This document shows positions 11,368-49,750 of a stretch of DNA of 49,771 nt, in pieces. The notes below the pieces were generated by a model. The model saw only the letters and a program-made list of their open reading frames with translations. It searched no databases and was not told the DNA's origin. The stretch's first letter is position 1; every line of letters begins with the position of its first letter. The DNA is from Alphaproteobacteria bacterium (GTDB lineage: Bacteria > Pseudomonadota > Alphaproteobacteria > RS24). The stretch spans positions 1 through 49,771 of the forward strand of contig JAQWZC010000109.1 in NCBI GenBank assembly GCA_029253645.1, given 5' to 3'. Made by a program: the position numbers and the translations under genes.

Positions 11368-13344
11368 TTATTGGCAGGAGAGACATTCTTCAAAATCATT
11401 ACCCTCGGCTGCGGCCGCCATAGCATCTTGCATGGCTTTGGTGTCATCCTCGGCTTTTTCAGCGCGTTGAATGGACAGCGAGCGACAATAATACAAGCTC
11501 TTCACACCCTTTTTCCAAGCCTGATAATGCACTTGGTGCAGGTCACGCTTGTGAATGTTGGCGGGCAGGAAGACGTTTAAGGATTGCGCTTGGTCAATCA
11601 GCTCCGAGCGGTCACCGGCGAAGTCAATCAGCCAACGCTGGTCAAGTTCGAAAGCGGTTTTGAAAACGGCCTTCTCATCATCGCTCAAGAAATCAAGGTG
11701 CTGAACCGAGCCGCCCGAGGTCACAATGGACGACCAGATATCATCATTATTCTGGCCTTTTTCATCGAGCAATTTATTGAGGTGACGGTTACGCACATTA
11801 AACGAACCGGACAGCGTTTTATGGGTAAAGCTATTGCCTGCAATCGGCTCAATGCCCGGGCTGGTGCCACCGCAAATAATCGAGATGGAAGCGGTTGGCG
11901 CAATCGCCGTTTTATTTGAGAAGCGCTCATTCATGCCGCATTCCGCCGCATCAAGGCACGGGCCGCGTTCATTGGCCAGTGCTTGCGACGCCGCATCGGC
12001 TTGCTCCTTAATATGGGTGAAAATGCGCTTATTCCAAACCTTCGCCATCACGCTTTCCCACGGAATCATATTGGCTTGCAGGAAGCTGTGAAAGCCCATC
12101 ACACCGAGGCCGACCGAGCGCTCGCGCTGGGCCGAATATTTCGCTTTGGCCATATCATCGGGCGCGCGCTGGATGAAATCCTCCAACACATTATCGAGGA
12201 AGCGCATCACGTCAGGAATAAATTCTTCTTCCTTATTCCATTCATCAAATTTTTCAGCATTTAAAGATGACAGGCAGCACACGGCTGTACGGTCATTGCC
12301 GAGATGGTCCTCACCCGTTGGCAGGGTAATTTCCGAACATAAATTCGATGTTTTAATCTCAAGATTGAGCAGTTTTTGATGCTCGGGACGCAGATTATTC
12401 ACCGTATCTTTGAACACCATATAGGGTTCGCCGGTTTCAATCCGCGCCGTCAGCATACGAATCCACAAATCACGCGCCTGCACAGTGGCTTGCACCGAGC
12501 CGTCTTTGGGTGAGCGCAAGGCCCATTCTTCGTCATTTTCAACCGCCCGCATAAAGGCGTCTGAAATCAGAATACCGTGATGCAAATTCAGCGCTTTGCG
12601 ATTCGGGTCGCCACCGGTCGGGCGGCGAATTTCAACAAATTCTTCAATTTCCGGATGGTCAATCGGCAGATAAACCGCGGCAGAGCCACGCCGTAAAGAA
12701 CCTTGCGAAATGGCCAGCGTCAGACTGTCCATCACCCGAATAAACGGCACAATGCCAGAGGTCTTGCCATTCTCACCGACTTTTTCGCCGATGGAGCGCA
12801 AATTGCCCCAATAAGAGCCAATGCCACCGCCGCGCGAGGCCAGCCAGACATTTTCATTCCATAAATTAACAATATCGCCAAGGCTGTCATTGGCCTCATT
12901 CAAGAAGCAGGAAATCGGCAGGCCGCGATCCGTGCCACCATTGGAGAGAACAGGGGTGGCCGGCATGAACCAAAGCTTGGAGATATAATCATAAAGACGC
13001 TGCGCATGCGCTTCGTCATCACCATAATAAGAGGCAACGCGGGCGAATAAATCTTGGAAGCTCTCGCCCGGCATTAAATATCGGTCGGTCAGGGTCGCCT
13101 TACCGAATGCCGTCAATAGCGCGTCGCGTGACGGGTCGGTTTTAACCCGCGGCGCGGCTTTAAACTGCACCGCTTGGTCGTGGCGGTCAAAATCAAGTTG
13201 CGGCTCGCTATGCGCCGGGTCACCCTCGGCACGACGCGGCTGGCGCGCATCCAATTGCTCTTTGGTCAGCACTTCATCTTGCATTTTTTCTTTGTCCTGA
13301 CCTTTTTTGGTGGCCCCATCATCGGCCCCGTTCTCTCTAAACAT
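11368..13344 (-). CDS. nrdA: Ribonucleoside-diphosphate reductase alpha subunit (class Ia)
   Basis: PVLSNGGTDRGLPISCFL, NLCSEITLPTGEDH, KSLYYCRS...EECLSCQ C-terminal redox cysteines. Confidence 0.97.
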   Translation of the reverse strand: MFRENGADDGATKKGQDKEKMQDEVLTKEQLDARQPRRAEGDPAHSEPQLDFDRHDQAVQFKAAPRVKTDPSRDALLTAFGKATLTDRYLMPGESFQDLFARVASYYGDDEAHAQRLYDYISKLWFMPATPVLSNGGTDRGLPISCFLNEANDSLGDIVNLWNENVWLASRGGGIGSYWGNLRSIGEKVGENGKTSGIVPFIRVMDSLTLAISQGSLRRGSAAVYLPIDHPEIEEFVEIRRPTGGDPNRKALNLHHGILISDAFMRAVENDEEWALRSPKDGSVQATVQARDLWIRMLTARIETGEPYMVFKDTVNNLRPEHQKLLNLEIKTSNLCSEITLPTGEDHLGNDRTAVCCLSSLNAEKFDEWNKEEEFIPDVMRFLDNVLEDFIQRAPDDMAKAKYSAQRERSVGLGVMGFHSFLQANMIPWESVMAKVWNKRIFTHIKEQADAASQALANERGPCLDAAECGMNERFSNKTAIAPTASISIICGGTSPGIEPIAGNSFTHKTLSGSFNVRNRHLNKLLDEKGQNNDDIWSSIVTSGGSVQHLDFLSDDEKAVFKTAFELDQRWLIDFAGDRSELIDQAQSLNVFLPANIHKRDLHQVHYQAWKKGVKSLYYCRSLSIQRAEKAEDDTKAMQDAMAAAAEGNDFEECLSCQ

Positions 13345-44789: not shown

Positions 44790-44855
44790 TAAAAGTAACG
44801 CCACTAGATGTGGTGGAAAAAATTGAAGATGAACTGATTTCGGAGGGTGCAAATC

Positions 44856-45338
44856 ATGGCATGGACTGACGAACGTGTTGAAATGCTTAAACAATTATGG
44901 ACTGACGGCTTATCTGCCAGTCAGATTGCCCGCAAAATGGGTGGTGTGACCCGTAATGCGGTTATCGGCAAAGTGCATCGGCTGGGGCTTTCCGGTCGGG
45001 CGACCCCGGCGCGGGTCTCAACGGCACGGATTTCTGCCGGTTCAGGACGGGCGCGCCCGTCAACGCCCTCATTATCGGGCAGCCAGCGTTTTCGAGCCAC
45101 TGAGTTGGATGATATTAAAGACCAAGTCGTGCCGGAACCGATTTTAAGCCCTGAGGAACGTGCCAGCGTCTTGCATCTGACCGAGCATACATGCAAATGG
45201 CCGATTGGGGACCCGGGCACGACCGAGTTTCATTTCTGCGGGGCGCGCGCCAAAAGCGGCAGCCCTTATTGCACAACCCATGCGGCACAAGCCTATCAGC
45301 CGCTGGAACGCCGACGTAAGAAAAAAGTCGCGCGCTAA
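44856..45338 (+). CDS. gcrA: GcrA cell cycle regulator
   Basis: MAWTDERVEMLKQLWTDGLSASQIARKMGGVTRNAVIGKVHRLGLSGR...CKWPIGDPGTTEFHFCGA...YCTTHAAQAYQP. Confidence 0.97.
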   Translation: MAWTDERVEMLKQLWTDGLSASQIARKMGGVTRNAVIGKVHRLGLSGRATPARVSTARISAGSGRARPSTPSLSGSQRFRATELDDIKDQVVPEPILSPEERASVLHLTEHTCKWPIGDPGTTEFHFCGARAKSGSPYCTTHAAQAYQPLERRRKKKVAR

Positions 45339-46274: not shown

Positions 46275-46378
46275 ACCGGCGCACCGCTCCGACGATTTTC
46301 ATGGATGACACGCCCTAGTTGACTGACCGTGGTTGACTGGCCCTAGTTGACATAAGAGCGGGCGCGGCTTAGAACGCA

Positions 46379-47535: not shown

Positions 47536-47943
47536 ATGTCATTTACCGGAAGCTGCTATTGCGGCAAAATAAAATACCAAGCCGAGGGCGATGCGGTGAT
47601 GAAACTGCAATGCCATTGTCGCGAATGCACTTATATCACAGGCGGCGCGGCCAATCTGACGATGGGCGTGGCTGAGGCGGGTTTCAAATACACCCAAGGC
47701 ACGCCATCGACTTATCAGCGTGACGATATTGACGGCGCCGTAACGCGTGAGTTTTGTGGCGATTGCGGCACACCGCTTTTGACCCGCGCCCCGGGCGCAC
47801 CAGGCGCGGTTTTGTTGAAAATCGGATCGCTCGACAATCCGGCTGATTTCAGTGGCCCTGATGCGGCCATTTATACTGATGAGAAACATGATTTCCATGT
47901 GATCGCCGATGGCGTTGCCCAATTTGGCAAATTGCCCGGTTAA
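47536..47943 (+). CDS. GFA family (glutathione-dependent formaldehyde-activating-like) protein
   Basis: GSCYCGKIKYQAEGD, QCHCRECTYITGG, FCGDCGTPLLTR. Confidence 0.93.
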   Translation: MSFTGSCYCGKIKYQAEGDAVMKLQCHCRECTYITGGAANLTMGVAEAGFKYTQGTPSTYQRDDIDGAVTREFCGDCGTPLLTRAPGAPGAVLLKIGSLDNPADFSGPDAAIYTDEKHDFHVIADGVAQFGKLPG

Positions 47944-47952
47944 GTAATACCT

Positions 47953-48050
47953 CGGCAGAGAAATCTGCCGCCCGGTTAAACAAAAAAACCCCCGGCAGAT
48001 TGCTCTGCCGCCCGGTTAAACAAAAAAACCCCCGGCAGAAGAATCTGCCG
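47953..48050. repeat. Tandem 40-bp repeat (2.45 copies) of terminator-like hairpins with variable tetraloops
   Basis: CGGCAGA-nnnn-TCTGCCG at 47953-47970 (loop GAAA), 47993-48010 (TTGC), 48033-48050 (AGAA); identical spacers CCCGGTTAAACAAAAAAACCCC. Confidence 0.97.
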
Positions 48051-48054
48051 GGGG
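48022..48054 (-). terminator. Rho-independent terminator of amtB
   Basis: Reverse strand CCCCCGGCAGA-TTCT-TCTGCCGGGGG-TTTTTTTG. Confidence 0.92.
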
Positions 48055-48073
48055 TCACGCTCACTAGGGGATA

Positions 48074-49384
48074 TCAAGTGCGCGAGAACTCGGGATAGGC
48101 TTCAATGCCCAGTTCTTCTTTATCGAGGCCCATCATTTCGCCGTCTTCATCGACGCGGATGCCCATCACCGCTTTCAGTATCGACCACAAAATGCCACTG
48201 GCAATCATGGTGAAGATACCGACAGCAACGACGCCAATGGCCTGCACAGTGTAGGTCGCATCGCTATTGGTCAGCGGCACAATCAATGTGCCCCAAATAC
48301 CGCAAACCAGGTGAGCCGGAATGGCACCGACAACATCATCGACTTTAAACTTGTCGAGCAGCGGCACAGCCAGAACCACCAGCACACCACCCACAGCACC
48401 GATAAAGGCGGCTGCCGGAATGGACGGGGTCAACGGCTCAGCCGTGATGGAGACAAGGCCACCAATCGCACCGTTCAGCGCCATGGTCAGGTCAATTTTG
48501 CCATACAGCGCATTTGACGCAATCATTGCCGCCACAACACCGGCCGCAGCGGCCATATTGGTGTTGATGAAGATGTTGGAGATGGCTGCCGCATCGGCAC
48601 CTGAACCCAGAGCCAGTTGCGAACCGCCATTAAAGCCGAACCAACCGAGCCACAAAATGAATGTGCCCAAAGTGGCCAAAGGCATATTGGAACCCGGGAT
48701 TGGGTTAACTTCGCCATTCGGGCCATATTTACCGGCGCGCGCGCCGAGAATAATGGCACCGGCCAGAGCCGCCCAACCACCGGTTGAGTGCACCAGTGTC
48801 GAACCGGCAAAGTCAGAAAAGCCCATAGCGTCGAGCCAGCCTGTGCCCCACTCCCAGCTGCCGACGATTGGATAAATAAATCCGGTCAGGAACAGCGTGA
48901 AGATAAGGAACGGCCACAGCTTCATCCGCTCGGCAATGGTGCCGGACACGATGGAAGCTGTTGTGGCGCAGAACACCATTTGGAAATACCAGTCAGAACC
49001 GGAGGCATAGCCGCCCGAGAAATCAGGTGTTTCACCGGCAATGGCGCTGTCATCGGCTGACCATACGGAGAACAACTCACCGATATAACCACCTTCGGCA
49101 ATGCCATACATCAGATTATAGCCGACCAGCCAATACATCAGACCGGCAATGGCGAATAATGAAATGTTTTTGACACAAATCGTAGCCACATTTTTGGACC
49201 GGACCATGCCGCTTTCGAGCATGGTAAAACCGGCGGCCATGAACATGACCAAGAAACCGCAGACCAGGAACAGGAATGTGTTGAACACATAGGCTGTCTC
49301 AGGGCTGACTTCAGCGAGGGCCGGACCGGCTGCCAAAGACAAAGCCGAACCCAGTCCCAAAATTTTGAGAGTATTTTTCAACAT
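48074..49384 (-). CDS. amtB: Ammonium transporter
   Basis: MAAGFTMLESGMVRSKN, DFAGSTLVHSTGGWAALAGAIILGAR, LGTFILWLGWFGFNGGS. Confidence 0.97.
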   Translation of the reverse strand: MLKNTLKILGLGSALSLAAGPALAEVSPETAYVFNTFLFLVCGFLVMFMAAGFTMLESGMVRSKNVATICVKNISLFAIAGLMYWLVGYNLMYGIAEGGYIGELFSVWSADDSAIAGETPDFSGGYASGSDWYFQMVFCATTASIVSGTIAERMKLWPFLIFTLFLTGFIYPIVGSWEWGTGWLDAMGFSDFAGSTLVHSTGGWAALAGAIILGARAGKYGPNGEVNPIPGSNMPLATLGTFILWLGWFGFNGGSQLALGSGADAAAISNIFINTNMAAAAGVVAAMIASNALYGKIDLTMALNGAIGGLVSITAEPLTPSIPAAAFIGAVGGVLVVLAVPLLDKFKVDDVVGAIPAHLVCGIWGTLIVPLTNSDATYTVQAIGVVAVGIFTMIASGILWSILKAVMGIRVDEDGEMMGLDKEELGIEAYPEFSRT

Positions 49385-49396
49385 TGGTGGAGTCCT

Positions 49397-49750
<354 letters not shown>

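Follow-up and report, generated by a model that had tools for sequence, protein, structure and literature searches.

Three tandem hairpins downstream of an alphaproteobacterial amtB gene: a very probable local triplication of an intrinsic terminator, with loops that probably changed as blocks

Gene context of the locus

The window, by which we mean the whole analysed stretch of 49,771 nucleotides, is one entire contig of a marine alphaproteobacterial assembly comprising 1.68 Mb in 165 contigs. The array described here sits where two genes converge, namely amtB, encoding an ammonium transporter (48074–49384, minus strand; Pfam PF00909, E-value 5e-104), and a gene of the GFA family (47536–47943, plus strand; PF04828, E-value 3e-27). 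The terminator in question would serve amtB, and the 3′ end of the GFA gene (47934–47943) appears to have given part of the repeat unit. Upstream of amtB lies a P-II gene of the glnB/glnK type (49397–49735, minus strand; PF00543, E-value 3e-31). Elsewhere in the window we found a gene for the cell-cycle regulator GcrA (44847–45338; PF07750), as is usual for Alphaproteobacteria, and a 14-bp tandem repeat (CCCTAGTTGACTGA, 2.8 copies, 46313–46351) between genes for a short-chain dehydrogenase and a solute-binding protein.

Structure of the array

Positions 47953–48050 of this single contig hold three hairpins with the stem GGCAGA/TCTGCC at a 40-bp spacing, and the same interval is the top repeat of the window in Tandem Repeats Finder (period 40, 2.5 copies, score 154). 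Read on the plus strand, it consists of CGGCAGA, the loop GAAA, a 36-bp linker, the loop TTGC, an identical 36-bp linker, the loop AGAA and TCTGCCG. The units 47953–47992 and 47993–48032 match at all 36 of 36 non-loop positions, the only mismatches being the four loop positions. The linker sequence, TCTGCCGCCCGGTTAAACAAAAAAACCCCCGGCAGA, occurs exactly twice, with starts at 47964 and 48004. Numbering the copies from the amtB side, linker A (48004–48039) runs from the loop of copy 1 to that of copy 2, and linker B (47964–47999), which matches it exactly, from the loop of copy 2 to that of copy 3. An exact tandem repeat of 36 bp is far beyond chance. The loops of copies 1, 2 and 3 read TTCT, GCAA and TTTC on the amtB (minus) strand (the third hairpin in plus-strand order, i.e. 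copy 1, is the one with AGAA on that strand), and neither outer loop has a base in common with the middle one at any of the four positions.

A first-pass annotation of this DNA had described three tandem hairpins with a 40-bp period and identical stems; the period, the 36/36 identity and the three loops stand as described, but the outer part of the stem is not the same in all copies (12 versus 7 bp). Copy 1 (48028–48055, minus strand; ACCCCCGGCAGA-TTCT-TCTGCCGGGGGT) has a perfect stem of 12 bp, including an outer part of CCCCC/GGGGG and a flanking A/T pair. Copy 2 (47993–48010, minus strand; CGGCAGA-GCAA-TCTGCCG) and copy 3 (47953–47970, minus strand; CGGCAGA-TTTC-TCTGCCG) have stems of 7 bp, as CCGGG from the end of the adjacent gene stands in their 5′ arm in place of the outer CCCCC. 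As a result of this replacement, GGGG separates the stem of copy 2 from its T7 (47982–47988); copy 3 lacks a T run, its U tract having decayed (AGGTATTAC). The 12-bp stem of copy 1 runs straight into its T run (T7 at 48022–48028), the first T of which pairs within the stem.

Predicted termination activity

Copy 1 is predicted to be a strong intrinsic terminator for amtB. Its perfect GC-rich stem lies about 20 nt past the amtB stop codon and is followed directly by the U tract, its predicted fold has an energy of −28 kcal/mol (z = −7.1), it is the best match in the terminator scan, and genus mates have the same stem in the same position. The predicted fold energies of copies 2 and 3 are −16.5 and −14.2 kcal/mol, respectively. 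Copy 2, with its 7-bp stem and four G before the T7, should terminate more weakly; it is terminator-like on the minus strand in the terminator scan, as is copy 1, so that the two form a tandem cluster. A bidirectional terminator was also looked for, and the GFA strand has no T run after any of the three hairpins, which makes the array one-directional, serving amtB.

RNA polymerase leaving amtB would, on this model, stop at copy 1 with its 12-bp stem and U tract; part of the read-through would be caught by copy 2 (7-bp stem, G4, U7), and copy 3, having no U tract, would be a relic. Transcripts that read through are predicted to allow almost complete pairing between copies 2 and 3, since the loops of these two are nearly reverse complements. 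The array as a whole may insulate the convergent GFA gene somewhat better than a single terminator would.

Hairpins followed by a T run are scarce in this group under the fairly strict rule used, with 63 found in 733 kb of the own genome and 106 in 1.18 Mb of the genus mate G007, which suggests that the lineage relies mostly on other termination signals.

A single hairpin in relatives

The locus was compared among 12 genomes of the genus and 28 of the family, the close relatives being labelled in GTDB as PS1 clade, Rhodobiaceae or Alphaproteobacteria MAGs. In the genus mates of the PS1 clade, a single hairpin, CCCCCGGCAGA-loop-TCTGCCGGGGG-T6-8, lies between amtB and the convergent GFA gene. 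In G002, G006, G007, G008 and G010, the amtB stop codon is followed by the conserved TCCCCTAGTGAGCGTGA and then by a single hairpin of the form C4-5GGCAG...CTGCCGG4-5 with T6-8; the GFA gene is convergent with and adjacent to amtB in G002, G007, G008, G010, G011 and G001. That relatives possess a single canonical amtB terminator with the same stem at this very place supports the original suggestion that the array is a reinforced terminator between the convergent genes. In G009 (locus L007), the contig C9 (1–22) ends right behind the amtB hairpin, which may point to variable or repetitive DNA beyond the terminator of that species as well.

Read on the amtB strand, the loop of the genus mates is GCAA (G002, G006, G007 and G009) or GAAA (G010), and G008 has GACCAT where the others have AGCAAT. 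Loops likewise vary among the amtB terminators of SAR116. A tandem pair of such hairpins had no match in the other genomes among the 28 of the family (the array thus occurring in 1 of 28), and at 78 other alphaproteobacterial amtB-like loci the first 250 nt downstream contained no direct repeat of at least 16 nt. Taken most simply, the comparison indicates that the ancestral state is a single terminator with the loop GCAA and that the triplication in the window is derived. On the same comparison, copy 2 in the middle is the one that keeps the presumed ancestral loop, and both outer loops are derived.

Origin of the array

How the copies may have arisen can be read from their junctions. Read on the amtB strand, the end of the GFA gene is TTAACCGGGCAATTTGCC (stop codon TTA). 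The array holds the sequence TTAACCGGGC three times: in two cases the next hairpin follows with its GGCAGA, and in the third the true gene end, AATTTGCC. The repeat unit therefore extended from GGCAGA of the hairpin as far as the GFA gene end. At the junction, this gene end (amtB strand: CCGGGC) is joined to the GGCAGA of a stem, and GCCCGGTTAA, located at the duplication junction in both linkers, is a copy of the last codons and the stop codon of the GFA gene. We propose that a first duplication, by slippage or end-joining, made the fused junction CGGGC/GGCAGA, and that a second duplication copied it, as would follow from both linkers sharing the junction exactly. The junction appears to allow few other readings of the duplication history. 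All in all, we consider it very probable, judging from the sequences compared, that the array is the intrinsic terminator of amtB triplicated locally in this lineage, with loops that probably changed as blocks.

Change of the loops

Four differences would be confined to the loop by chance with a probability of 1.1e-5 over the 40-bp unit and of 5.5e-4 when set against the 12 spacer bases without an obvious pairing constraint. The change of the outer loops at four of four positions beside unchanged linkers points to block changes. Template switching within the palindromes, giving inverted loops with a small number of point changes, would be the most likely route to them, since the loops would be free to vary and the stems held by pairing; this is the least certain step of the proposed scenario, and our confidence in it stays just short of the halfway mark.

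The exact inversion of GCAA is TTGC, and neither derived loop equals it. Copy 3 (TTTC) lies at a distance of one from TTGC and copy 1 (TTCT) at a distance of two, as compared with a distance of four from GCAA in the same orientation for both. If only loops unlike GCAA at every one of the four sites are counted, the probability of a pair as close to TTGC is about 0.08. The GAAA loop of G010, when reverse-complemented, gives the loop of copy 3 exactly. The loop inversion raised in the first-pass annotation is therefore plausible for copy 3 and weaker for copy 1, and it is statistically marginal. We also scanned about 733 kb of the own genome against 1.18 Mb of G007 for inverted loops, a pair that is about 78% identical and thus too diverged to give the scan much power. 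It yielded just 22 hairpins with conserved inner stems, with the same loop in 14, a different one in eight and an exactly inverted one in none; the two rows from the array were alone in having a smaller distance to the reverse complement than to the loop in the same orientation. In sum, these loops suggest inversion by template switching as a plausible process but do not prove it.

A serious contender, to which we give somewhat less than half of our credence, is that the loops, being free of constraint, quickly accumulate point mutations, with the stems and the U tract under selection, so that the triplication would stand without any inversion. The variable loops over conserved stems in the genus mates, those of the SAR116 terminators and the marginal fit to inversion are all in keeping with this. 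Drift should, however, hit the unpaired spacer GTTTAACCGGGC too, and this is unchanged while each outer loop changed at four of four positions; the persistence of the ancestral loop in the middle copy likewise argues against it. As for inversion, it is conceivable, if again rather less than probable, that the outer loops were inverted after the triplication relative to the ancestral middle loop, in which case the array would record template-switch events in paralogous copies within one genome. Copies 2 and 3 would then make up an 18-bp inverted repeat, perfect but for one mismatch, and each hairpin could template its neighbour.

Assembly artefact or mobile element

That the array might be an artefact, with single-hairpin strain variants carrying different loops strung together or the copy number wrong, seems unlikely to us. 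The assembly is fragmented, the exact repeats of 36 bp are longer than short k-mers, and the contig of G009 ends right behind the hairpin; yet the fused junction CGGGC/GGCAGA is present twice, which single-hairpin strains cannot yield, the array of only about 100 bp fits into one read pair, and the three distinct loops make the copies separable.

The first-pass annotation also considered a mobile terminator-like repeat or a processed small RNA. No further instance of the stem was found in the own 1.68-Mb genome outside the array, a search of this genome with a 151-bp query returned only the query itself, and in 2.45 Mb of sequence the remaining pairs of hairpins with a repeated stem had only short, unrelated stems. 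A dispersed repeat is accordingly rejected and a mobile terminator-like (REP) repeat not supported, there being no copies elsewhere in the genome or the family; a known RNA family is rejected too, as Rfam gave only sub-threshold matches to unrelated families. Tandem hairpins look REP-like in outline, but with the genome devoid of dispersed copies, the rest of the family devoid of the array, Rfam below threshold and the flanks indicating a local duplication that included the adjacent gene's end, a mobile or small-RNA element is highly improbable. Relatives without loop variation and without dispersed copies had been named beforehand as evidence against the initial view, and here the outcome is mixed: dispersed copies are absent, and loops do vary between relatives.

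Viral contigs scanned for the stem and for the linker gave three unrelated single hairpins only. On one IMG/VR contig (L266, 430 kb), the hairpin TCTGCCGCCCGGTTAAACCGGGCGGCAGA at 13215–13243 shares its first 18 bases with the linker of the window; a match of 18 bases is close to chance expectation for a collection of that size and is probably a coincidence.

Comparison with known systems

The array implies no new element or regulatory system. We rather see in it a small and clean natural case in which terminators would multiply in place and loops would change blockwise over stems that remain perfectly paired, the middle copy apparently preserving the ancestral loop state. It thereby bears on the origin and upkeep of perfect stems, i.e. 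on template switching versus compensatory mutation.

Terminators commonly occur in clusters in bacteria, for the most part as pairs (PMC8355165), and the array resembles these tandem intrinsic terminators in having several hairpins behind a stop codon in one transcript. It differs from them in that its copies stem from recent duplication and share their inner stems and linkers exactly, the loops alone being different, and in that the third copy lacks a U tract. Template-switch loop inversions, typically of tetraloops, have been documented in bacterial rRNA hairpins (PMC8794818), where, as probably here, a tetraloop changed as a block and a perfect stem was left untouched; the rRNA inversions are exact and placed on a sequence tree, whereas the loops in the window are one and two mismatches off and occur in tandem terminator copies. 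The ‘small inversions’ at chloroplast hairpins, e.g. in trnH-psbA and petA-psbJ (PMC6824564), are similar as a flip-flop of a noncoding loop between inverted-repeat arms that creates several differences per event, but these are single plastid hairpins and not a tandem array. Both terminator clustering and loop inversion are thus already known, and the array is an ordinary one of modest mutational interest; what is unusual about it is the perfect identity of the linkers beside the complete change of the loops.
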